11,752 bases of DNA from the NCBI GenBank assembly GCA_016209155.1, contig JACQWU010000003.1, forward strand, positions 1-11,752, read 5' to 3'. This document shows, in pieces, positions 1 to 11,343 of the stretch. The first letter of the stretch is position 1; each line of letters starts with the position of its first letter. The notes below the pieces were generated by a model. That model was not told the DNA's origin. It made no database searches and saw only the letters and a program-made list of their open reading frames with translations. Origin of the DNA: Candidatus Desantisiibacteriota bacterium (GTDB taxonomy: Bacteria > JACRDZ01). Made by a program: the position numbers and the translations under genes.

Positions 1-416
1 GCCTTATTTTCTGTAAAATGTCTCAGCATAAGATAGGCGATATATATAAACCATAGTATAAGCGTGGTTGTAAGTCTTGGTTCCCATGTCCACCAGGCAT
101 TCCATATCGGTCTTGCCCATATCGGGCCTGTTATGAGAACAAGGGTGCAGAATAAAATCCCGATTTCAGCCGCACAATACGCTGTTATATCATAAATATG
201 GTCTTTTTTTAGTAAATACAATATGCTCATAACAAATACCACAAAAAACGCAAGAAATGAAACCCATGCCAGAGGTACATGAAAATAAAATATTTTTTGA
301 ATTATTCCCATAACCTTTTCAACGGGTACATAAATAAAAACAGCATATAATGATATTAGCATGGATGTAAAAGTGAGGGCTGTTAATACGGATATGACTT
401 TTTTTAATTGAAACAT
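1..416 (-). CDS. ccmC: CcmC, haem-handling membrane protein of cytochrome c maturation (3' end cut by window edge)
   Basis: Reading leftwards from ATG 416-414, the first 138 codons are open and encode a hydrophobic protein that runs off the window. CcmC is the integral membrane protein that presents haem to CcmE, together with the CcmAB ABC transporter. Visible hallmarks are the tryptophan-rich WWD motif near residues 108-118 (NAWWTWEPRLT) and the first periplasmic haem-ligand His at residue 46 in FYFHVPLAW, which matches His60 of the E. coli protein. The second ligand His lies beyond the edge. About four membrane segments are visible. A good Shine-Dalgarno (AAAGGAGA, 428-421) sits 4 bases before the ATG. 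It is the last visible gene of the minus-strand ccm operon and is separated from ccmB by a repeat-filled gap. The assignment is firm and only the length is unknown. Confidence 0.95.
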   Translation of the reverse strand, partial: MFQLKKVISVLTALTFTSMLISLYAVFIYVPVEKVMGIIQKIFYFHVPLAWVSFLAFFVVFVMSILYLLKKDHIYDITAYCAAEIGILFCTLVLITGPIWARPIWNAWWTWEPRLTTTLILWFIYIAYLMLRHFTENK

Positions 417-436
417 GGTATCTCCTTTGAAAAGAA

Positions 437-549
437 GCAATGAGCAATGAGTGATGAGCAATGCGCAAAATATTTTACTCGTCACTCATTGCTCATTACT
501 CATTGCTCATTACTCATTGCTCATTACTCATTGCTCATTACTCATTGCT
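437..549. repeat. Heptamer/14-mer minisatellite with an inverted arm, in the ccmB-ccmC gap
   Basis: Positions 484-549 are 4.7 perfect tandem copies of the 14-mer ACTCATTGCTCATT, which is itself two heptamers differing only in the first base (A or G). Positions 437-463 carry the same motif on the opposite strand (GCAATGAGCAATGAG and onward) with one mismatch. The two arms are separated by a short AT-rich loop (about 464-482), so the single strand can fold into a long hairpin. It lies inside the ccm transcript, between the ccmB stop and the ccmC ribosome binding site. It has no spacers, so it is not a CRISPR array. Confidence 0.9.
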
Positions 550-555
550 ATGCAC

Positions 556-1227
556 TTATTCCTCAATCACATATTCAAAAACAAGATAAGATATTACTAT
601 AAAAATAATATCAAATGCTCCAAGCATTTTTATCCAGTTTAGTATATCAGATATCGGTTTATCTTTAAACAAAAATTCTGTGGATTTAACAGCTCCCACA
701 ATCACAGGCACCATAACAGGGAAAAGCAAAATAGGGAGCATTACTTCTCTTGTGCGTGTGTTGATGGACATTGCGGCAAACAATGTGCCGACGGATGCAA
801 ATCCTATTGTTGCAAGTAATACCACAATAACAAGCGGTATTAAAAAAGGGAGCAGGCTGATATTAAAAAATACAGCAAAGAAGATAAGCGAAACAAGTTC
901 TATTATCAGCATAAAAATAATATTTCCAAGCATTTTGCCAAGATAAATAATTCCGCGGTCAACCGGTGAAAGAATAAGTCCGCTTATACATGAATTTTCT
1001 TTTTCCGAGACCATGGAATGATTAAGCCCGAGTATTCCTGCAAATGTAAAAGCAACCCATAAAATACCGGGAGCGGCGGCTTTTACAATTTCACTGCCCG
1101 GTTCAAAAGTAAAATTAAAAATAACTACGACCAGCATTGAAAATATTATCATGGAAGTGAGTATTTCTTTTGATCTTAGTTCAGATATTATATCTTTTTT
1201 AACAATCGCCCATATTTTTTTTATCAT
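556..1227 (-). CDS. ccmB: CcmB, membrane subunit of the CcmAB ABC transporter
   Basis: This 223-residue protein has six predicted membrane segments, the usual length of CcmB (about 220). CcmB pairs with CcmA, and their ATP hydrolysis is needed to release haem-loaded CcmE from CcmC. Family signatures are the N-terminal KKDIISELRSKE stretch (residues 10-21) ahead of the first membrane helix, the block PGILWVAFTFAGILGLN (residues 53-69), and SGLILSPVDRGIIYLGK (about residues 82-98). The start at 1227 fits the family N-terminus, although the ribosome binding site is weak (CGGGAAA). It lies downstream of ccmA across a 110 bp gap holding an inverted repeat, and upstream of ccmC across another repeat-filled gap. 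No missing or altered segment was seen. Confidence 0.95.
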   Translation of the reverse strand: MIKKIWAIVKKDIISELRSKEILTSMIIFSMLVVVIFNFTFEPGSEIVKAAAPGILWVAFTFAGILGLNHSMVSEKENSCISGLILSPVDRGIIYLGKMLGNIIFMLIIELVSLIFFAVFFNISLLPFLIPLVIVVLLATIGFASVGTLFAAMSINTRTREVMLPILLFPVMVPVIVGAVKSTEFLFKDKPISDILNWIKMLGAFDIIFIVISYLVFEYVIEE

Positions 1228-1244
1228 AGATTTCCCGAAAATTC

Positions 1245-1327
1245 TTCAGGTGTTCAGGCTGAAGGCTGAAGGAGATTAGTCAATGCATTCGTACCTAAAA
1301 GCCTTCAGTCTTCAGTCTATCAACCTG
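1245..1327 (-). repeat. CTTCAG-rich inverted repeat, copy 1 (ccmA-ccmB gap)
   Basis: This 83 bp element begins TTCAGG and ends CCTG. Internal blocks are CTGAAGGCTGAAGG (1259-1272), CCTAAAAGCCTTC (1294-1306) and CTTCAGTCTAT (1310-1320). The left and right arms are imperfectly complementary. Its reverse complement matches the copy at 11346-11426 block by block and in the same order, so the two are members of one dispersed family in opposite orientation. It fills most of the space between ccmA and ccmB. Confidence 0.85.
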
Positions 1328-1337
1328 CGCAGCTCCA

Positions 1338-2060
1338 TCAGCTCTTTGAATTCTGCACTTTCTCATGATAGATTTTAATAAAATCATCTTCTTTTATATT
1401 CCGGCATTTTTCTAAAAATACGATTTGGCCGTTTACAAGAATAGACAGAATATTGCTTACTTTATATCCTATTGACAGATCGTGTGTAATTAAGATTATT
1501 GTGCGTTTTTCTTCATATAAACGTTTGAGCAGATCGCTTAATAGCTGTGTTGCATGCTGATCAAGCCCGGTATAGGGTTCATCTAAAAAAATTATTTCAG
1601 GATTATGAAGAAGGGCTCTTGCGATAGTAAGTCTCTGCTGCATGCCGCGCGAGAAGGTTCTCGCAAGATCATTTTTACGTTCAAATAATCCAACCTCTGT
1701 AAGTACTCTTTCTGCTCTTACAATTGGATCCTGGACATCATAAAGTTTACTGTAAAAAAGAAGATTTTCCCAGGCAGTAAGATTATTATAAATAAAGCTG
1801 TCATGCGAGATGATGCCGATAGATCTGCGGAGTTCCTCTTCATGCTCATGAGGGGTAAATCCCGCGATTTTTACTGTTCCCGATGTTGGCTTGCTTAATG
1901 TGGAAAGAATTTTAAGTAAAGTGGTTTTCCCTGCGCCATTTGGTCCGAATAGTCCGAGAGTTTCACCTTTTTTTAAATTCAGGGATATTCCTTTAAGCAC
2001 TTTTTTATTCCCAAAATTTTTTGTAAGGTTTTCAATTTGAATAATATTTTCTGAGGTCAT
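1338..2060 (-). CDS. ccmA: CcmA, ATP-binding subunit of the CcmAB ABC transporter
   Basis: This 240-residue ABC ATPase carries all the motifs: Walker A GPNGAGKT (39-46), a Q-loop region with His in place of Gln (ISHDSF, 84-89, as is common in CcmA), signature FSRGMQQR (136-143), Walker B IIFLDEP (156-162) with catalytic Glu161, and the H-loop His193 (ITHD). It energises the CcmAB step of haem delivery on the cytoplasmic face of the inner membrane. At 240 residues it is longer than the roughly 205-residue enterobacterial CcmA, and the extra length is a hydrophilic C-terminal tail. Its ATG follows the stop of the upstream small gene by only 3 bases and no clear Shine-Dalgarno is present, so translational coupling is likely. 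CcmA identity rests on the motifs plus the operon position next to ccmB. Confidence 0.95.
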   Translation of the reverse strand: MTSENIIQIENLTKNFGNKKVLKGISLNLKKGETLGLFGPNGAGKTTLLKILSTLSKPTSGTVKIAGFTPHEHEEELRRSIGIISHDSFIYNNLTAWENLLFYSKLYDVQDPIVRAERVLTEVGLFERKNDLARTFSRGMQQRLTIARALLHNPEIIFLDEPYTGLDQHATQLLSDLLKRLYEEKRTIILITHDLSIGYKVSNILSILVNGQIVFLEKCRNIKEDDFIKIYHEKVQNSKS

Positions 2061-2063
2061 ATT

Positions 2064-2357
2064 TTATTTTTCTGATTTTAACAAATCAATCTGTTTAAGA
2101 ACATTGATAGCATTGTTTTTATAAGTTAACCATGCATGTTCAAAATCTTCCTTAGAAATTTTATTTGTAGCGTAATCTGCTTCCATATCGCGAAGTGTGG
2201 CAAAAATACCTAATTTATGATCTTCCAGCTCTGCCAGTTTATCTTCAAATTTTCCCCATGACGGGCTTATTCCCTGTTTTTTACTTATAAGCGGGTAAAA
2301 AATATAACACAAACCGGCTATACTAAATAATATTATTGTTGCTATTGACATTGTCAT
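2064..2357 (-). CDS. Small CcmI/CycH-N-terminal-like membrane protein
   Basis: This 97-residue protein has one membrane helix (about residues 4-22) followed by a charged helical segment. The stretch LRDMEADYATNKISKEDF (55-72) resembles the cytoplasmic loop after the first helix of CcmI/CycH, where the family typically has LRDLEFD followed by TGKLSEEDY. CcmI normally continues into a second helix and a TPR domain that binds the apocytochrome C-terminus, and all of that is absent here. It sits between the ccmH-like gene and ccmA, with a clear AGGAGA ribosome binding site 7-8 bases before the ATG and a 3-base gap to ccmA. An in-frame Met3 is an alternative start. A role as a CcmH/CcmF accessory protein is inferred from position and the short motif only, with no direct evidence of function. 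Confidence 0.7.
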   Translation of the reverse strand: MTMSIATIILFSIAGLCYIFYPLISKKQGISPSWGKFEDKLAELEDHKLGIFATLRDMEADYATNKISKEDFEHAWLTYKNNAINVLKQIDLLKSEK

Positions 2358-2399
2358 AATTATTTCTCCTATTTATAAATTTGGTAATTCTAAAATCCA

Positions 2400-2427
2400 G
2401 TAGAGACGCAAAATTTTGCGTCTCTAC
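2400..2427. repeat. Perfect 28 bp palindrome in the ccmH-ccmI gap
   Basis: The half-site GTAGAGACGCAAAA is followed immediately by its exact reverse complement, giving a 28 bp palindrome with no loop. It is REP-like, and palindromes with GTAGAGACG ends are known as abundant intergenic repeats in several bacterial groups. It lies 15 bases past the ccmH-like stop in the direction of transcription. No T-run follows on the transcribed strand, so a classic intrinsic terminator is unlikely. Confidence 0.9.
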
Positions 2428-2442
2428 GTTTTATATTTTATC

Positions 2443-2907
2443 TTACACTCTTTCTTTATAAGCTTTATATTCTTCTTCAAATTGTATTTCATATTTATCT
2501 TTACCGTCACCGGGACTTTGAACGTTCATAGCATTTTTTGATTCTTCATGTGATTTGTTGATTTTTATCCATTTACCGATGAAAGCGGATATTAAAATAA
2601 GCGCCAGGGCAAAACCTGCAACAGGCACTATATAAGCCATAGCCATGCCTGCGCCTTTTTCCCGCGGATTTATTAGAACAGCCCCCCCAAATTGCATAGA
2701 TACAGCATCAAGAATTTCATCTTTACTTTTTCCTTCATCCGACATTTTTTTTACAGTCGATATTATTTCAGGTCTGTCATGATCCGGACATTTTATTTCC
2801 TGTTGAAGAATTTCTTCCATAGTACCTCCGAACACATATTTCCCGGCAGGGGGAAAAAGAATAATTATTAATAATATAAATTTAATGAATATTATTTTTT
2901 TATTCAT
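2443..2907 (-). CDS. ccmH: CcmH-like cytochrome c biogenesis protein with a single cysteine
   Basis: This 154-residue protein has a signal-anchor (about 4-24), a short periplasmic domain and a second membrane helix (about 89-111), the architecture of CcmH/CycL. The periplasmic part follows the family: EIKCPDHDRP (37-46) stands where CcmH has LRCxxCQNQS, then the helix IISTVKKMSDEGKSKDEILD, then a segment ending MQFGGAVLINP that corresponds to the family YGxxVLxxPP. The redox CxxC is reduced to Cys40-Pro-Asp-His43, and no other Cys exists in the protein. CcmH normally reduces or holds apocytochrome for CcmF, and one cysteine could still form a mixed disulfide. That last point is inference. A strong AAGGAGATAA ribosome binding site precedes the ATG, and the gene begins 24 bases after ccmF ends. 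The family call is good. Loss of function or altered chemistry cannot be told apart from sequence alone. Confidence 0.8.
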   Translation of the reverse strand: MNKKIIFIKFILLIIILFPPAGKYVFGGTMEEILQQEIKCPDHDRPEIISTVKKMSDEGKSKDEILDAVSMQFGGAVLINPREKGAGMAMAYIVPVAGFALALILISAFIGKWIKINKSHEESKNAMNVQSPGDGKDKYEIQFEEEYKAYKERV

Positions 2908-2931
2908 TTAAATTATCTCCTTCTTTTTAGT

Positions 2932-4884
2932 TTATGCGGCCGCATATTTTTTATCAGGCCATAATGCAATGATACATCCGATACTTACAACAATGGTTCC
3001 AATCCACATCCATATCACCAGAGGATTAATTAAGAATTTAAAAGAAGCGCTTTTGTCTCTTTCATATCCTCCCAAAATCACATACAGATCGTGCGTAATT
3101 GTGCTCATAATAGCCACTTCTGTGGCAGGTTGTTCTCTATTACGATAAAAATTCTTTTCAGGATAAAGAATTTTATACGGTTTGCCATCTTTAAAAACAG
3201 AAATTTTGGCTGCAACTATTTCTTTATGAGGTGTGTTTTCATATGTAAGGTCATCGTATCGTAAAACATAATGACCCAGGGCTTCGCTCATTCCCGGTTT
3301 TAAAGGCACTTCTTTTTCAGTGACAAATGCCGAGGATCCGGTAACTCCGAAAAATATAAGAACTATTCCTATATGTACAATATATCCGCCATAGCGGCGT
3401 TTGTTTTTCTTGATTATTGCAAAAAATGAACTGAAATAATTTTTCCCTGTTGCACTTGCATAAGCTATTGTTCCGCGGTAAAACTCTGTTGTTATTACAC
3501 TTAACACAAAGACACATAAACTGAATGCGAGAACCGCATATATTAAATAAATTTTAAAAATGAAGAGTACTACCGCTGTTATAATAAATAAAATTACGGG
3601 AATAATGAAATTTTTTTGGAGATTTAGTTTTGATGCTTTACGCCATGCAATTAAAGGGCATATACCCATAAATGTGAAAAGAAGCAAAAATTGAGGAATT
3701 GTAACACGATTAAAAAATTCCTGTCCTACAGTAATCTTAATCCCTTTTATCAGTTCGGAAACCAGAGGAAAAGCAGTCCCCCATAATGTCGCAAAGCAAA
3801 TACATACGAGTATTATTGTAGCAAAAAGAAACATACTTTCTTTGGATAAAAATGATTCAATCTCATTTTCGCTTTTAAGCTTGTTTTTTCTCCATATTAC
3901 AAGAATCATAAAACCAATAAGAACAAATAACATGAAGATAATAAAAAATGGTCCTAATTTTGATTGACCAAAAGAATGTACCGATGATATAAACCCTGTG
4001 CGGGTAATAAATGTGCCGAATATACATAGATTAAAAGTTATCATTGCCAGTATCATATTCCAGATTTTCATCATTCCCCGTCTTTCCTGCATCATTACTG
4101 AATGCAGCAGAGCAGAGGCAGAAAGCCAGGGAATAAACGAGGAGTTCTCAACAGGGTCCCATGCCCAGTACCCGCCCCATCCCAGTACTTCATATGCCCA
4201 TTCTCCTCCGAGCACTATCCCGATTGTGAGAAAAAACCACGCAAATATATTCCAGCGGCGGATATCTTTTATCCATGAATTATCAAGCTCTCCGCTTAAT
4301 AAAGCCCCTGCGGCATAAGCAAAAGGGAAAGTATATGCGGCATATCCCAGAAAAAGCGTGGGGGGATGCCATGTCATGCCGGGATTTTGCAGTAGAGGAT
4401 TAAGTCCTGCACCATCCGGAGGCATAAAATTTAACAGTTTAAAAGGATTGGTTGCGAAAATCATTAAAATAAGAAAAAATATATCTGTAATGGCAATAAT
4501 AGCATAGGTATATGGGATATATCTTTTTTTAGTAAATTCATGCCTTGTATTCCAAGCCACTACTGCGCCGCCAATAGCCAGAAGCCATGTCCAGAAAAGA
4601 AGAGAGCCTTCCTGCCCCGCCCAGAATGCGGCTACTGTATAAAACATAGGGAGTGTCCTGCTTGTGTAGTTAGCTATATATTCAACTTGAAAATTTCGAG
4701 TCACAAGCGCATGAAGCAGAACAAAAGAAGATACAGTGATAAAAAAACATATAACATAAAAACTGCGTCTTGCGGTTTCAATGTATAAAAAAGATTCCTT
4801 TTTGCTTCCCAAAAAGGATGATATTACTATATATACTGCAAGTATTATAGAAACAATAAACGAATAAAAACCAATATCTATCAT
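2932..4884 (-). CDS. ccmF: CcmF, membrane core of the cytochrome c haem lyase
   Basis: This 650-residue polytopic membrane protein has the size and all the hallmarks of CcmF, which takes haem from CcmE and attaches it to apocytochrome c in the periplasm. The WWD motif is GWGGYWAWDPVENSSF (235-250). Four expected haem-ligand histidines are present: His173 (TWHPPTLFLGY), His261 (LLHSVMM), His303 (SVHSFG) and His504 (GGYIVHIGI). The first three have the same numbers as in E. coli. About 15 membrane helices surround a C-terminal periplasmic segment (about 520-615), followed by a final helix. The start at 4884 has an excellent GGAGGT ribosome binding site and the family N-terminus. It lies between ccmE and the ccmH-like gene. 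It is intact, with no oddities in the motifs. Confidence 0.97.
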   Translation of the reverse strand: MIDIGFYSFIVSIILAVYIVISSFLGSKKESFLYIETARRSFYVICFFITVSSFVLLHALVTRNFQVEYIANYTSRTLPMFYTVAAFWAGQEGSLLFWTWLLAIGGAVVAWNTRHEFTKKRYIPYTYAIIAITDIFFLILMIFATNPFKLLNFMPPDGAGLNPLLQNPGMTWHPPTLFLGYAAYTFPFAYAAGALLSGELDNSWIKDIRRWNIFAWFFLTIGIVLGGEWAYEVLGWGGYWAWDPVENSSFIPWLSASALLHSVMMQERRGMMKIWNMILAMITFNLCIFGTFITRTGFISSVHSFGQSKLGPFFIIFMLFVLIGFMILVIWRKNKLKSENEIESFLSKESMFLFATIILVCICFATLWGTAFPLVSELIKGIKITVGQEFFNRVTIPQFLLLFTFMGICPLIAWRKASKLNLQKNFIIPVILFIITAVVLFIFKIYLIYAVLAFSLCVFVLSVITTEFYRGTIAYASATGKNYFSSFFAIIKKNKRRYGGYIVHIGIVLIFFGVTGSSAFVTEKEVPLKPGMSEALGHYVLRYDDLTYENTPHKEIVAAKISVFKDGKPYKILYPEKNFYRNREQPATEVAIMSTITHDLYVILGGYERDKSASFKFLINPLVIWMWIGTIVVSIGCIIALWPDKKYAAA

Positions 4885-4922
4885 TACAACCTCCTTAATT
4901 TTATATTTGGCAATGTCAAAAA

Positions 4923-4966
4923 TTAACCGCAGAAACGGAGTAATCCTTAATTTTTCTCTGTGGTTC
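4923..4966 (-). repeat. CCACAG/CTGCGG inverted repeat, copy 1, overlapping the 3' end of ccmE
   Basis: On the minus strand this begins GGAACCACAGAG and ends CTGCGGTTAA, so the ends are imperfect inverted repeats. The same ends flank the copy at 9015-9078. The minus-strand 5' part supplies the last residues and the TAA stop of ccmE (4949-4947), and the rest fills the gap before ccmF. Confidence 0.7.
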
Positions 4967-5372
4967 CTTTTTCATTTTTTTCCTGATATTTGGAAGGACA
5001 TTTGGCAAGAAGCACAGTGGCTTTAAAAACATGATTTTCTATTAATTTTCCTTCTACTACTACCGTTATATCCGGTTTGAAAATATCCGGAATTATGCCT
5101 GAATAGTCCACTTTTATTTTTTTATTTTTATCTTTCTCATCCATAATTTCAAACTGGATGCGCATACCGTTTGAGTCCCGAACTACGGAACCGTCAACCA
5201 CCTTGCCTGAAATTCTGACACCTTCATTTTTATATTTTTGTTCGTCATTTAAAAATTCACCTACATTTAAATAGTATACCATGGAATCCTGCATACCGCT
5301 ATAGGCAAGATAACCCAGTATTCCAAAAACAATAATGCTTCCGATTAATATTTTTTTTGTTTTAGTTGTCAT
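4947..5372 (-). CDS. ccmE: CcmE, periplasmic haem chaperone of the cysteine (CxxxY) type
   Basis: This 141-residue protein has an N-terminal membrane anchor (about 8-24) and an OB-fold periplasmic domain with the family features VRISGKVVDGSV (52-63), YSGIIPDIFKP (90-100) and VVVEGKL (104-110). CcmE receives haem from CcmC and carries it to CcmF. The usual covalent haem ligand is the His of AKHDENY, but here the motif is AKCPSKY, with Cys125 and Tyr129. This is the CxxxY form known from Desulfovibrio desulfuricans and some archaea. The C-terminal tail beyond about residue 130 is short and lysine-rich, and its last codons come from an intergenic repeat. A GGGG ribosome binding site precedes the ATG. 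It is the first gene of the operon, 510 bases from the transketolase start-side promoter region boundary counted through its own length, and it faces that gene divergently. Confidence 0.95.
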   Translation of the reverse strand: MTTKTKKILIGSIIVFGILGYLAYSGMQDSMVYYLNVGEFLNDEQKYKNEGVRISGKVVDGSVVRDSNGMRIQFEIMDEKDKNKKIKVDYSGIIPDIFKPDITVVVEGKLIENHVFKATVLLAKCPSKYQEKNEKGTTEKN

Positions 5373-5631: not shown

Positions 5632-6492
5632 ATGGCGGATTGTTCATCTCTTGAGAAAATGGCTAACACTATCCGTCAGGATATAATAACAATGCTTACG
5701 AATTCCTGTTCCGGACATCCCGGCGGCTCCCTTTCAAGCGCTGATATTCTTACCGTGCTATATTTTCATAAAATGAGAATAAATTCAAAAAATCCCAAAT
5801 GGCCTGACAGAGATCGTTTTGTAATGTCTAAAGGTCATGCAGCACCTGTATTATATGCATCACTTGCGCGTGCGGGTTTTTTTGATGTATCGGAGCTTCT
5901 GACATTACGCAAGCTTGGAAGTATTCTTCAAGGGCATCCCGACTATAAACTTACTCCGGGAGTAGAATGTTCTACCGGTTCGCTTGGACAGGGTCTTTCA
6001 ATAGCCAATGGAATGGCTCTTGCCGGTAAACTTGACAAAAAAGATTATCGTGTTTATGCGCTGATAGGTGACGGAGAAAGTCAGGAAGGGCAGATATGGG
6101 AAGCTGCCATGGCATCTGCTCATTATAAGCTTGACAATCTCTGTGTGATTCAGGATTTTAATGGATTGCAAATAGACGGTCCTGTAGAAGAAGTTATGAA
6201 TGTAAAACCATTACCTGAAAAATGGCGTTCTTTCGGATTTAATGTTCAGGAAATTAACGGACATGATATATCTGAAATAATATCAGCATTTGATAAAGCA
6301 GAGGAAGAAAAAGGAAAACCGAGCATAATTATCGCCAATACAATTAAAGGCAAGGGAGTTTCTTTCATGGAAGGACAATGTAAATATCATGGTACGCCGC
6401 CCACAAAGGAAGAAGGGGACAAATGTCCGGTTCAACCAAATCATCGGTTTTTCGTGATAAGTACCCGTCTCGTTTTTTTAACTTTGGTGTAG
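5632..6492 (+). CDS. Transketolase N-terminal (TPP-binding) subunit, 3' end altered by a junction deletion
   Basis: Split transketolases encode the PP (TPP pyrophosphate-binding) and Pyr domains as separate subunits of the pentose phosphate pathway enzyme that transfers two-carbon ketol units. This is the first subunit. It shows SGHPGGSLSSADIL (27-40), SKGHAAP (66-72), TGSLGQGLSIANGMA (115-129), the TPP/metal motif GDGESQEGQIWEAA (147-160) extending to Asn177, and KGKGVSFMEG near 239-248. Family similarity runs to about Lys264 (PTKEEGDK). The last 22 residues (CPVQPN onward) are unlike the family. They are the start of the C-subunit gene read in the wrong frame. The natural end, about 10-20 residues, is therefore missing. 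The start has a promoter and an AAGGAA ribosome binding site. It overlaps the next frame by 70 bases. Identity is certain, but whether it makes active enzyme is open. Confidence 0.9.
   Translation: MADCSSLEKMANTIRQDIITMLTNSCSGHPGGSLSSADILTVLYFHKMRINSKNPKWPDRDRFVMSKGHAAPVLYASLARAGFFDVSELLTLRKLGSILQGHPDYKLTPGVECSTGSLGQGLSIANGMALAGKLDKKDYRVYALIGDGESQEGQIWEAAMASAHYKLDNLCVIQDFNGLQIDGPVEEVMNVKPLPEKWRSFGFNVQEINGHDISEIISAFDKAEEEKGKPSIIIANTIKGKGVSFMEGQCKYHGTPPTKEEGDKCPVQPNHRFFVISTRLVFLTLV
6411..6418 (+). promoter_or_regulatory. Shine-Dalgarno-like site for the transketolase C-subunit frame
   Basis: AGAAGGGG lies 4 bases before the ATG at 6423, so internal initiation of the second frame is possible. 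It is also ordinary coding sequence of the first subunit (KEEGD), so the match may be accidental. Confidence 0.35.
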
Positions 6493-7277
6493 CTGAACAG
6501 AACATGATGGGTACAGCCGCCGGATTTGCATTGTCCGGAAAAATAGTTTTTGCCAGCTCTTTTGCTATTTTCGCGACCGGCCGTGCATGGGAACAGATAA
6601 GAAACAGCATAGCAAGTCCTAATATAAATGTTAAAATTGTAGGAAGTCACAGTGGTATTTCCGTGGGAGAAGACGGTTCTTCGCATCAGGCACTGGAAGA
6701 TATTGCTTTGATGAGGGTTATTCCGAACATGAAAATAATTGTTCCCGCTGATGCGATAGAAACTGAAAAAGCGGTATTTGCCGCGGCAGAAATCCAGGGA
6801 CCTGTATACATCCGGACATCAAGACCAAAAACGCCGGTAATATTTAACGAGAATTATGAATTTCATCTGGGCAGGGGCGCTGTGATTAGAAAAGGCGCGG
6901 ATATTACAATTATCGCGACCGGTATTATGCTTAATGTTGCTCTGGAAGCAGCGGTAAAATTATTTAATCAAAAGATAGACTGCAGAGTTGTAAATATGCC
7001 GACAATAAAACCTATTGACAGAGAAATAATAATTTCTTCCGCTTCCGAGACAGGAGCAATTTTAACGATCGAAGAACATTCCATTGTCGGTGGACTGGGA
7101 AGCGCTGTGGCAGAAGTACTTGCTGAAGAAAACCGCAATGCTTTTTTTAAAGGTGTGGGTATTCCCGATAAATTTGGACAATCAGGTACTTATGAAGAAC
7201 TCTTCGCTTTTTACGGACTTACGTCAGAAAATATAATGAATGAAGTTCTTGAAATTTTGAAAAAAAAACGAAAATAG
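6423..7277 (+). CDS. Transketolase C-terminal (Pyr/C-domain) subunit, N-terminus missing
   Basis: This 284-residue frame carries the Pyr domain and the C-terminal domain of transketolase. The catalytic Glu is Glu25 in FGVAEQNMMG. Further family blocks are FATGRAWEQIRNS (50-62), SHSGISVGEDGSSHQALEDIALMRVIPNM (74-102), PVYIRTSRPK, and EEHSIVGGLGSAVAEVL near residues 216-232. The first residues, MSGSTKSS, correspond to the SGST segment that in intact subunits follows roughly 30-40 residues (a TREAYG-type helix and a VVLDAD strand). Those are absent here, and the frame is closed by TAA at 6381. The subunit is thus shorter than the usual 310 or so and lacks the opening helix-strand of the Pyr fold. 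It is in the -1 frame relative to its partner. It could be a real deletion, a population variant or an assembly error. Confidence 0.85.
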   Translation: MSGSTKSSVFRDKYPSRFFNFGVAEQNMMGTAAGFALSGKIVFASSFAIFATGRAWEQIRNSIASPNINVKIVGSHSGISVGEDGSSHQALEDIALMRVIPNMKIIVPADAIETEKAVFAAAEIQGPVYIRTSRPKTPVIFNENYEFHLGRGAVIRKGADITIIATGIMLNVALEAAVKLFNQKIDCRVVNMPTIKPIDREIIISSASETGAILTIEEHSIVGGLGSAVAEVLAEENRNAFFKGVGIPDKFGQSGTYEELFAFYGLTSENIMNEVLEILKKKRK

Positions 7278-7279
7278 CG

Positions 7280-7345
7280 GTAGGTTGATAGATCAGAGCA
7301 AATGCTCTAAATCACCTGATTAGCAAGGCTAAAGCCTTGCCCTAC
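7280..7345. repeat. Nested hairpin repeat after the transketolase genes
   Basis: The block is bounded by GTAGG (7280-7284) and CCCTAC (7340-7345). Inside are AGAGCA-AA-TGCTCT (7295-7308), set within ATCAG (7292-7296) and CTGAT (7316-7320), and a GCAAGGCT-AA-AGCCTTGC hairpin (7323-7340). It is REP-like. The second hairpin is strong but is followed by CCTACTTCAG rather than a T-run, so it is weak as an intrinsic terminator. The remaining sequence to the ftsE start at 7447 shows no clear promoter. Confidence 0.75.
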
Positions 7346-7446: not shown

Positions 7447-8160
7447 ATGATTATTTTTAATAATGTATCAAAAAAATACGGATCTGCCAATCAGGCTATC
7501 TTTAATACCAGTCTGAAAATTAATGATGGAGAACTTGTATTTTTAGCAGGTTCACCGGGAGCAGGGAAAACAACTTTCATAAAATTAATAGTAGGATTGG
7601 ATAAGCCTGATCAGGGTCAGCTTAATGTAAAAGGCAGAAGTCTTTCTGCATTAAGCTACAGTGGATTGGCATTAGCCCGCCGTGAAATGGGTATTATAAT
7701 GGATGCCTTTAGTTTATTCCCGAATTTAACTCTTGAGGAAAACATAGAATTGCCTCTTCGTATTACCGGGATAACCAAAAAAGAAAGGGAGAAAAAGGTA
7801 CAGGATATTATTGAGCAGTTTGGACTTACGCAAAAACGTCATTTTTTCGGTTATGAACTTCCGTATCAGGAAAAAAAATTGTGTATGACTGCAAGAGCTC
7901 TTGTAACAGAGCCATGTCTTATAATTGCTGATGAGATATTCGATTCTATGCTTCCTGAAAATATAAATATTATAACTCAAAAAATTTTTGACCTGCTCGA
8001 AAAAAATGCAACTGCTGTCATATCTTTAAATCAAGTTGAAATTATTAATGATCTTCCCAAAAGGAAACGATTAATTACTTTTTCTAACGGTAAAATAATC
8101 AAAGACGAAATTTTAAAAGACAGAGCCGAACAACTGGAAGGTATATTGGATAATGTTTAA
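7447..8160 (+). CDS. ftsE: FtsE-like ABC ATPase with degenerate catalytic motifs
   Basis: This 237-residue protein is next to ftsX and overlaps it, so it is the FtsE of an FtsEX complex, which in model bacteria couples ATP use in the cytoplasm to periplasmic amidase activation during division. Walker A GSPGAGKT (35-42) and the Walker B core IIADE (159-163) are intact, and the fold regions FPNLTLEENIELPLR and ARAL are typical. Other motifs are changed: the Q-loop Gln is Asp86 (GIIMDAFSL), the signature LSGGE reads LPYQE (138-142), the DEPTGNLD segment reads DEIFDSML so the D-loop Asp is Leu169, and the H-loop His is Asn195 (ISLNQVE). ATP binding looks possible while hydrolysis looks impaired; that is inference. 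The start at 7447 is bounded by an in-frame TGA at 7435, and its ribosome binding site is poor. Confidence 0.85.
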   Translation: MIIFNNVSKKYGSANQAIFNTSLKINDGELVFLAGSPGAGKTTFIKLIVGLDKPDQGQLNVKGRSLSALSYSGLALARREMGIIMDAFSLFPNLTLEENIELPLRITGITKKEREKKVQDIIEQFGLTQKRHFFGYELPYQEKKLCMTARALVTEPCLIIADEIFDSMLPENINIITQKIFDLLEKNATAVISLNQVEIINDLPKRKRLITFSNGKIIKDEILKDRAEQLEGILDNV

Positions 8161-8995
8161 AAATAATTTTGGATTTTATTTAAAAATGGCAATTTTGTAT
8201 TTAGGTGAAGCACGCTATCCTTATATGTTCATGAATATAATATTTATTTTTTCATTAGTATTATTCGGGATGGGCATTTTAATTCAAAATAATTTTAAAA
8301 ATTTTATTGAGGAGAAAAAAAGCAATTATGAAGTAATGGTATATTTGAAAAAAGATTATGACAAAAATAAATTTTTCAATGCATTAAAAGAATTTCACGG
8401 TCTTAGCAAGGTAACTTATATAAATCCGGAAAAATTTGAAGCTTCTATAAAAACAGAAGATAAAAAAATGGCAAAACTTATAAGTTCACTTTCTTTTAAT
8501 CCGTTCCCCGTTGCATACAGTATTATTTTAAAAAAAGAAGTATGGAGTAAAGATAAGGTAAAAGATCTTGTTGATTTTCTTGCAAAAAAGCCTGAAGTTG
8601 AAGATGTGGATTTCGGGGAGACTGTTATAGATTTTTTAACTGCAATTTTTGTGAACATTGAAAAGGTAACTAAATACATATTGTATGTTCTGGGAATGAT
8701 TGGACTTTTTTCTATGCTTGGGGCAACAATAAACTGTAGAAAGTATCTTACTTCCTCCATTGGAATATTAAAGCTAAGCGGTGCAGGTAAGATTTTTATT
8801 CGAATGCCTTTTATTCTTGCAGGTATTATAATAGGGATAATATCAAGTATTGTAGCTTTAGTATTACTGGCTTCTGTATTTTCATATATTGCAAAAGATG
8901 TCCCTATAATTTTTTTATCATGGTATGATATTTCAATTATTTTTTGCGCAGGGTGTATAATCCCTATATTAGGCAATATTTTTAGTCTTGAGTAA
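8153..8995 (+). CDS. ftsX: FtsX, membrane subunit of the FtsEX division complex
   Basis: This 280-residue protein has the FtsX layout: a short cytoplasmic N-terminus, helix 1 (about 24-46), a periplasmic domain (about 47-170), then three helices (about 173-195, 216-247 and 252-277). The periplasmic domain has the family NPFP motif (116-119) and the EVEDVDFGE segment near 147-156. After helix 2, the RKYLTSSIGILKLSGAGKIFIRMPF stretch (196-220) matches the conserved cytoplasmic loop that contacts FtsE. The gene begins inside the end of ftsE, sharing 8 bases (ATGTTTAA), with GGAAGG about 9 bases upstream, so the two are co-translated. FtsX passes the FtsE signal to EnvC-type activators through its periplasmic domain. 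No truncation is visible. Confidence 0.93.
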   Translation: MFKNNFGFYLKMAILYLGEARYPYMFMNIIFIFSLVLFGMGILIQNNFKNFIEEKKSNYEVMVYLKKDYDKNKFFNALKEFHGLSKVTYINPEKFEASIKTEDKKMAKLISSLSFNPFPVAYSIILKKEVWSKDKVKDLVDFLAKKPEVEDVDFGETVIDFLTAIFVNIEKVTKYILYVLGMIGLFSMLGATINCRKYLTSSIGILKLSGAGKIFIRMPFILAGIIIGIISSIVALVLLASVFSYIAKDVPIIFLSWYDISIIFCAGCIIPILGNIFSLE

Positions 8996-10005: not shown

Positions 10006-11343
10006 ATGAAAAAAAGTTTTATTAAATGGATAAGTGTATTATTTTTTATTTTATTTTTGGGAGCTGGATTTGCGTTATGGGGTGCGTCAGCGCAGCACAC
10101 TAAAAGTATTTATGAAGATTTGAAAAATTTTTCAGACGTACTTTCTTTAATTCAGGAAAATTATGTAGATGAAATTTTATCTCAGGATCTGATAAAGGGT
10201 GCAATTAGGGGTATGATGGGAACTCTTGATCCTCACAGTCAATATATGGAAAAAGAAGAATATAACGACCTTAAGGTTCAGACCAAAGGGGAATTTGGCG
10301 GTTTGGGAATTGTTGTTACAATAAAAGATAATCTGCTTACGGTAATATCTCCGATTGAAGATACTCCGGCATTTAAAGCTGGAATTATGGCAGGTGACAG
10401 AATAGTTAAAATAGAAGATGAATATACTAAAGATATGACTTTATATGAAGCTATCGGTAAAATGCGCGGTGAATCCGGAACAAAAATAAATATAAGTATT
10501 TATAGAGAAGGGCATGCGGATTTAATCCAATTTACGCTTATTAGGGCGAAAATCCCTATGGTTTCCGTTAAATATCACATGGTTAAAGATAATGTCGGGT
10601 ATATAAAAATCAGCGAATTTAAATCAAAAACCGGTGAAGAATTGGAAAAAGCACTTAAGGATCTGGAAAAGCAGGGAATGCAATCTTTGGTATTGGATTT
10701 GAGGCATAATCCGGGCGGGCTTCTTAATGTAGCAGTTGAAGTGGCAAATAAATTTATTTCCCGCGGCAGATTAATAGTTTATACCAAAGGAAGAATAGAG
10801 GGTCAAAATATGCAATTTTTTGCTGACAAGGAACCTTCTCATCCGAATTTTCCTCTGGTAATCCTTGTAAATATGGGAAGCGCCAGCGCTTCTGAAATTG
10901 TTGCAGGAGCTGTTCAGGATTGGAACCGGGGGGCGCTGGTTGGGACAAAAACATTTGGGAAAGGTTCCGTACAGAGCATTATTCCACTTGGTGAAAGCGG
11001 AGCCTCCGGTTTGAGATTAACTACAGCCAAATACTATACTCCAAGCGGACGATGTATACACGGGGAAGGAATTATGCCTGATATTAATATAGAAATGTCT
11101 ACAGATCAGCAGCTAAAAATTTATAAACAGGAAAGCGAAGAAGAGAATATTAAAGTCAATGAAAAACAGAGACAATATCTTAAAGATACTATTGATAGTA
11201 CTAGTGTTGAATTAAGACAGAAACCGGAAGAACAAAAAAATAATGAAATAGAAAAAGTTTCTGATATTCAACTGGACATTGCTGTTGATATTCTTAAAGC
11301 TCAATATTTATTCACTAAAAGTAAATTTGAGTCATTATTATAA
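10006..11343 (+). CDS. ctpA: CtpA, S41-family carboxyl-terminal processing protease
   Basis: This 445-residue protein has an uncleaved or cleavable N-terminal signal (about 4-29), an N-terminal helical region, a PDZ domain (about 96-180, GGLGIVVTIKDN then PAFKAGIMAGDRIVKI) and the S41 catalytic core. Catalysis uses a Ser-Lys dyad: Ser294 in GSASASEI and Lys319 in TFGKGSVQ, 25 residues apart as in E. coli Prc (452/477), with the supporting Gln323. The LDLRHNPGGLL segment (230-240) is also typical. The last about 80 residues are charged and less conserved. Such proteases trim or degrade periplasmic proteins, often ones that act on peptidoglycan, and the gene commonly sits beside envC-like genes. 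A good AGGAG (9993-9997) lies 8 bases before the ATG, and it begins 37 bases after the envC-like stop. Confidence 0.97.
   Translation: MKKSFIKWISVLFFILFLGAGFALWGASAQHTKSIYEDLKNFSDVLSLIQENYVDEILSQDLIKGAIRGMMGTLDPHSQYMEKEEYNDLKVQTKGEFGGLGIVVTIKDNLLTVISPIEDTPAFKAGIMAGDRIVKIEDEYTKDMTLYEAIGKMRGESGTKINISIYREGHADLIQFTLIRAKIPMVSVKYHMVKDNVGYIKISEFKSKTGEELEKALKDLEKQGMQSLVLDLRHNPGGLLNVAVEVANKFISRGRLIVYTKGRIEGQNMQFFADKEPSHPNFPLVILVNMGSASASEIVAGAVQDWNRGALVGTKTFGKGSVQSIIPLGESGASGLRLTTAKYYTPSGRCIHGEGIMPDINIEMSTDQQLKIYKQESEEENIKVNEKQRQYLKDTIDSTSVELRQKPEEQKNNEIEKVSDIQLDIAVDILKAQYLFTKSKFESLL

Follow-up and report, generated by a model that had tools for sequence, protein, structure and literature searches.

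The locus described here raises the question of what FtsE can still do for a dividing cell when much of its ATPase motif set has been replaced. The stretch of DNA analysed (the window, 11,752 nucleotides) is a whole contig of a 3.08-Mb, 78.8% complete assembly of a Candidatus Desantisiibacteriota bacterium. Its ftsE lies directly upstream of ftsX. The preliminary description, made from the sequence alone, had reported a clean frame and an 8-base overlap with ftsX, and both were borne out (ORF 7447-8160, 237 aa; ftsX start at 8153). The codon usage of ftsE is normal and like that of the adjoining genes. We compared the locus across four genomes of the phylum, namely the window genome, G002 from another family, and G001 and G003, which represent one genus of a third family. 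The ftsE-ftsX order is shared by G001-G003, and the features of the window are collected in Table 1.

Table 1. Features of the ftsE locus, numbered from the first letter of the window.
Feature	Coordinates	Strand	Basis
Split transketolase tktN + tktC, syntenic neighbours of ftsE	5632..7277	+	Order shared with G001 and G003
ftsE, 237 aa, degenerate (putative pseudo-ATPase) FtsE	7447..8160	+	TIGR02673 best family; model; fold matches
Walker A/P-loop GSPGAGKT, intact (residues 35-42, Lys41)	7549..7572	+	5/5 conserved P-loop sites kept
Q-loop position, Asp86 for Gln	7702..7704	+	Alignments to solved FtsE and to profiles
Signature position, LPYQE (138-142) for LSGGE	7858..7872	+	Alignments; Gly141 invariant in 107 surveyed FtsEs
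Walker B Asp162 + catalytic Glu163, intact (ADE 161-163)	7930..7935	+	Alignment; conserved-site count
PTGNLD/D-loop segment changed to IFDSML, Leu169 for Asp	7936..7953	+	6/6 conserved sites lost
H-loop (switch) position, Asn195 for His	8029..8031	+	Alignments
ftsX, 280 aa	8153..8995	+	TIGR00439 116.5 bits (under cut-off); FtsX_ECD over cut-off; folds like solved FtsX
FtsX X-lobe helices (EnvC side), retained	8426..8485	+	Helices 92-102 and 104-111 in model; 32-residue segment; 6tpi match
envC-like gene, 290 aa, short coil + LytM domain without zinc-ligand residues	9096..9968	+	Profile matches; comparison with G002
ctpA-type S41 peptidase, conserved locus end	10006..11343	+	TIGR00225 over cut-off; same position in G001, G002 and G003

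Several other observations concern the surroundings of ftsE. The split transketolase is damaged or misassembled at 6400-6500, where its frames overlap; compared with G001 and G003, tktN is without its end and tktC without about its first 30 residues. The gap between tktC and ftsE holds a perfect 7-bp hairpin (GCAAGGC-TAAA-GCCTTGC, 7323-7340), which a search across the loci found on the window contig only. The minus strand at 3-5372 carries a cytochrome c maturation (ccm) cluster, judged from translations alone, that is divergent from the tkt-fts locus. No Rfam family matched in the window.

Alignment with the solved Pseudomonas aeruginosa FtsE (8i6o) sets Asp86 against the Q-loop Gln, LPYQE against LSTGQ (LSGGE in most FtsEs), Leu169 against the D-loop Asp (IFDSMLP/PTGNLDP), and Asn195 against the H-loop His (SLNQ/ASHD). 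Identical motif columns were obtained in a profile alignment of 107 FtsEs found via their FtsX neighbours, and all residue changes named earlier are in place, as are the intact Lys41 and Asp162-Glu163. Among 48 positions that are at least 85% conserved across 93 near-canonical FtsEs, the window protein is changed at 22, compared with a mean of 2.4 and a maximum of 9 for the 93 proteins themselves. The changes affect 15 of the 17 sites in the Q-loop, signature, PTGNLD and H-loop but only 7 of the 31 elsewhere (Fisher p = 1.4e-5), and the conserved sites of the P-loop (5/5) and of Walker B/Glu (3/3) are all kept. With four of seven motifs lost, the protein does not carry a complete ATPase motif set.

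By best match, position and fold, though not by the NCBI equivalog rule, this protein is a divergent FtsE. TIGR02673 (FtsE) is the top of 167 families for it, matching over the full length with 145.8 bits, a score below the curated cut-off of 264.85. The model, built with 12 relatives, has a pLDDT of 88.6, and its closest structural neighbours are the solved FtsEs 6z63 and 8hd0 (8hd0_A: Z 30.5, 1.6 Å over 218 residues, in a fold common to many ABC ATPases). As modelled, the protein looks like a well-folded FtsE from which catalytic motifs have been selectively lost, not like a random wreck.

The relatives in the phylum put these losses into context. G001 and G003 have the locus tktN-tktC-ftsE-ftsX-ctpA, which is the window order minus envC (the G001 copy is split over two contigs). 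The FtsE of G003 keeps Gln86 and has LSDFE, Ser163, Asn169 and Lys195, while that of G001 keeps Asp169 and has Asp86, LSEFE, Asp163 and Arg195. Both have Lys for the P-loop Gly38, and the signature Gly141 is replaced by Gln or Phe in the window, G001 and G003 proteins. At the G002 locus, ftsE-ftsX-envC-ctpA, the D-loop (NLD) and the H-loop (ATHD) of FtsE are canonical; because the contig starts inside ftsE, the motif reading covers these two loops only. Between G001 and G003, dN/dS is 0.114 for ftsE (bootstrap 0.047-0.180), 0.161 for ftsX and 0.06-0.22 for seven neighbouring genes, at a dS of about 1.4, which is near saturation. By these ratios the degenerate ftsE is kept by purifying selection in that genus, and the same would probably hold for the window ftsE, if the related genus is a guide. 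Ratios for degenerate pairs from other lineages were left out of account, since some of the open frames used there extend upstream of the start codon.

The earlier interpretation is thus supported in part, namely in its argument against simple decay. Degenerate FtsEs occur in synteny, their dN/dS of 0.11 lies within the range of the neighbouring genes, and no second FtsX was found; the ratio is that of G001 and G003, not of the window gene. The preliminary description had looked for contrary evidence to relatives with canonical motifs together with a dN/dS near 1, or to a second canonical ftsEX. One such relative does exist, as G002 is canonical at the D- and H-loop, while neither of the other two was encountered, the dN/dS again coming from G001 and G003 and the genome search from an assembly with about 21% missing. 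In an FtsE tree made without the motif columns, the window protein groups weakly with G001 and G003 (85/78, long branches), whereas in the CtpA tree it groups with G002, the genome with canonical D/H-loops (99/98, distant outgroup). Because the two trees disagree and the residues lost differ, parallel losses in the window and in G001/G003 seem at least as likely as one ancestral event.

The partners of FtsE differ among these genomes as well. In the window FtsX, FtsX_ECD (PF18075) scores over its cut-off and TIGR00439 under its own, the X-lobe and type VII topology are predicted by the model and its fold matches, and the model matches the EnvC-bound FtsX domain 6tpi. The X-lobe segment, at 32 residues, equals the median among 133 FtsX. 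In the FtsX of G001 and G003 (L066:7238-8026; L103:127-915), this segment measures 14 residues instead of about 35, in loci that also have no envC; the best matches to the G002 EnvC in these two genomes span the M23 domain only and lie in other proteins. The LytM domain of the window EnvC is without zinc-ligand residues, as is that of E. coli EnvC (PMC11627006). At 290 aa versus 419 aa in G002, the window protein differs mostly in its coiled-coil part, which is about half as long, and it reaches 84.8 bits in the EnvC family NF008644 against a 270-bit cut-off, the part preceding LytM being far shorter than in G002. In E. coli, it is through this coil that motion powered by ATP reaches the restraining arm (PMC12505981). 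A weaker ATP motor, a weaker transmitting coil and, at the end, the disappearance of both EnvC and the lobe on which it docks form a coherent picture, although any order of events drawn from four genomes is tentative.

A survey extended the comparison beyond the phylum. Among 386 genomes, 226 gave a match to the FtsX extracellular domain, and the neighbourhood was read at 129 FtsX loci, in 107 of which FtsE adjoins FtsX. Loci were sampled through FtsX, so that the state of FtsE was no factor in their selection, and a strongly diverged FtsX such as that of G001/G003 would escape. FtsE is near-canonical in 93 of the 107, and the switch His is absent in 11 of the 106 that are readable there, in eight families. 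FtsEs lacking this His, some of them changed in additional motifs, were seen at L136, L142, L138, L160, L140, L146, L137, L169, L171 and L168, in several other families; those of L138 and L160 are related and have Glu, Glu and Thr at the Q-loop, D-loop and H-loop. The FtsE of L175 (G208:C1:47354-49535, ORF 556-1287 minus) has no P-loop (SENVLAATA) and has lost the Q-loop Gln, the catalytic Glu and the switch His, although its 243-aa frame, which lies between mltG and ftsX, is intact. No FtsE adjoins FtsX at 22 loci. Three of these (L078, L180 and L183) end at a contig edge; the other 19 have FtsX alone, with ftsE possibly elsewhere in the genome. At L156 (G186:C93:26397-28575), the order is tktN-tktC-ftsX with no ftsE between, as if it had been lost from the same neighbourhood. 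Degenerate FtsEs occupy several separate places in the FtsE tree made without the motif columns.

Within the window genome (79% complete), protein and extracellular-domain searches for a second FtsX gave this copy only, and the other FtsX-superfamily permeases adjoin other ABC proteins. One candidate for a second canonical ftsEX, the C49 ABC protein next to an FtsX-domain protein, was rejected, as its neighbour is a split, larger LolC/MacB-like permease and not FtsX. All four genomes of the phylum encode FtsA as well as an Amidase_3 protein, and therefore both ends of the pathway remain; the idea that loss of FtsA or of the amidase had made ATP dispensable was ruled out by the same finding.

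The reading that we favour, with a probability of about 60%, is that the window FtsE is a pseudo-ATPase kept as an FtsX-bound scaffold and that ATP-driven activation of EnvC has been abandoned. As the cytoplasmic half of FtsEX, FtsE would hold FtsX in its assembled state and anchor it to the divisome, while FtsX would still present its periplasmic X-lobe to EnvC. Neither the ATP-driven closing of the FtsE dimer nor the activation of EnvC and its amidase that this closing times would take place any longer. Put most simply, FtsE may have retained the recruitment part of its job and lost the cycle. The genomes could then form a series, from canonical D/H-loops with a long EnvC (G002), through a degenerate FtsE with a short EnvC (window), to a degenerate FtsE whose locus has no envC and whose FtsX has lost most of its X-lobe (G001, G003). 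The support is sequence-based and consists of the motif loss, the predicted intact fold and P-loop, the intact X-lobe of FtsX, the short EnvC coil, and the syntenic degenerate ftsE under purifying selection in the related genus; from these we infer a lack of productive ATP turnover, a scaffold role, and EnvC regulation without an ATP stroke.

Published work on other bacteria speaks for this reading. In E. coli, FtsEX localisation, FtsA contact and EnvC recruitment are independent of ATP hydrolysis, which is required to relieve the septal wall synthesis block and for full EnvC activity (PMC7343993), and in M. tuberculosis ATP binding is not needed for FtsEX to recruit RipC (PMC10694151). Also in favour of the scaffold, degenerate FtsEs beside FtsX recur in other lineages, one of them without a P-loop. 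Against it, ATPase-dead FtsEX in E. coli acts by way of FtsA to block septal wall synthesis (PMC7343993). Since FtsA is present in all four genomes, some compensation must exist. Furthermore, a pure scaffold would not need the P-loop, Walker B and Glu163 that the window protein keeps unaltered, and these could allow ATP to stay bound in a structural role.

This retention, while the other motifs are gone, is what recommends the nucleotide-binding switch with little turnover that had been proposed earlier, in which ATP at the P-loop and Walker B would be either a ligand with a structural role or a slow switch, fixing FtsX in one conformation. Consistent with it, EnvC activation in E. coli is driven by ATP binding and not by hydrolysis (PMC12505981). 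The relatives speak against it, as in G001 and G003 the P-loop Gly38 has become Lys and the catalytic Glu has become Asp or Ser. In another lineage, the G208 FtsE has no P-loop at all. The signature Gly141 faces ATP across the dimer, and its replacement by Gln or Phe in all three degenerate proteins of the phylum would, judging from ABC structures, be unfavourable for a closed ATP sandwich dimer. ATP-dependent dimer closure should leave the opposite pattern, and because the nucleotide-site residues are not conserved in G001 and G003, we consider such a switch unlikely.

A relaxed gene heading for loss, its frame intact from recency or from the overlap with ftsX, would account for the long branch of the window FtsE (1.38 versus a median of 0.48), the shortened EnvC, the changes at 7 of the 31 other conserved sites, and the 19 surveyed loci, L156 included, where FtsX has no adjacent FtsE. 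However, the losses cluster in the catalytic motifs and are not spread across the fold, codon usage is normal, and the degenerate ftsE of G001/G003 is under purifying selection, which together make decay quite improbable. We give very little credence to a canonical ATPase partner or a back-up ftsEX in the missing fifth of the genome: an intact P-loop with a broken signature can mark one half of an asymmetric pair, and the genome, at 78.8% completeness, has 29 other ABC matches, but no unpaired FtsE-like ATPase stands out among them, the nearest adjoin other FtsX-superfamily permeases, and G001, at 98% completeness, carries one FtsX.

The favoured scaffold can be set beside systems already described. 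The window resembles FtsEX-EnvC, the type VII ABC mechanotransmission complex of E. coli, P. aeruginosa and V. cholerae, in its ftsE-ftsX-envC order, the folds of FtsE and FtsX, the X-lobe, the LytM domain without zinc ligands, and the FtsA and Amidase_3 protein elsewhere in the genome. It departs from that complex in the missing Q-loop Gln, signature, D-loop Asp and switch His of FtsE and in an EnvC coil about half that of G002, and G001 and G003 depart further in having neither envC nor most of the X-lobe. Asymmetric ABC proteins (CFTR, TAP, TM287/288) have the catalytic Glu, switch His or signature naturally replaced while one consensus site remains; the window FtsE shares such natural replacements, at the switch His and the signature, but a homodimer of this protein would have two degenerate sites. 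Laboratory ATPase-dead FtsEX mutants (E. coli D162N and E163Q; M. tuberculosis D164A and E165Q) are alike in that a block of the ATP cycle is expected and recruitment by FtsX can remain (PMC7343993, PMC10694151). In contrast to these, the window FtsE is natural, keeps Asp162 and Glu163 with other motifs changed, and is the only copy found in its genome. No description of a degenerate FtsE was found in a search of open-licence papers.

Current work is still sorting out which share of FtsEX function is that of a scaffold and which depends on a signal driven by ATP, and because ATPase mutants made in the laboratory block septal wall synthesis, they are difficult to interpret. Where selection maintains an FtsEX that has lost its hydrolysis motifs, nature supplies a separation-of-function series, and such lineages predict that the ATP step of E. 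coli has been replaced by another change, such as an altered FtsA contact or a shortened or lost EnvC. Tentatively, and at somewhat less than even odds, FtsEX may have turned repeatedly, in several bacterial lineages, from a mechanotransmitter driven by ATP into a division scaffold that works independently of nucleotide. Some of these lineages would also have lost EnvC and the FtsX lobe opposite it, and the window species would be one intermediate. As equally altered FtsEs in two related genomes are kept by selection, the lasting job of the window FtsE is suggested to be holding the division complex together rather than acting as an ATP-driven motor.
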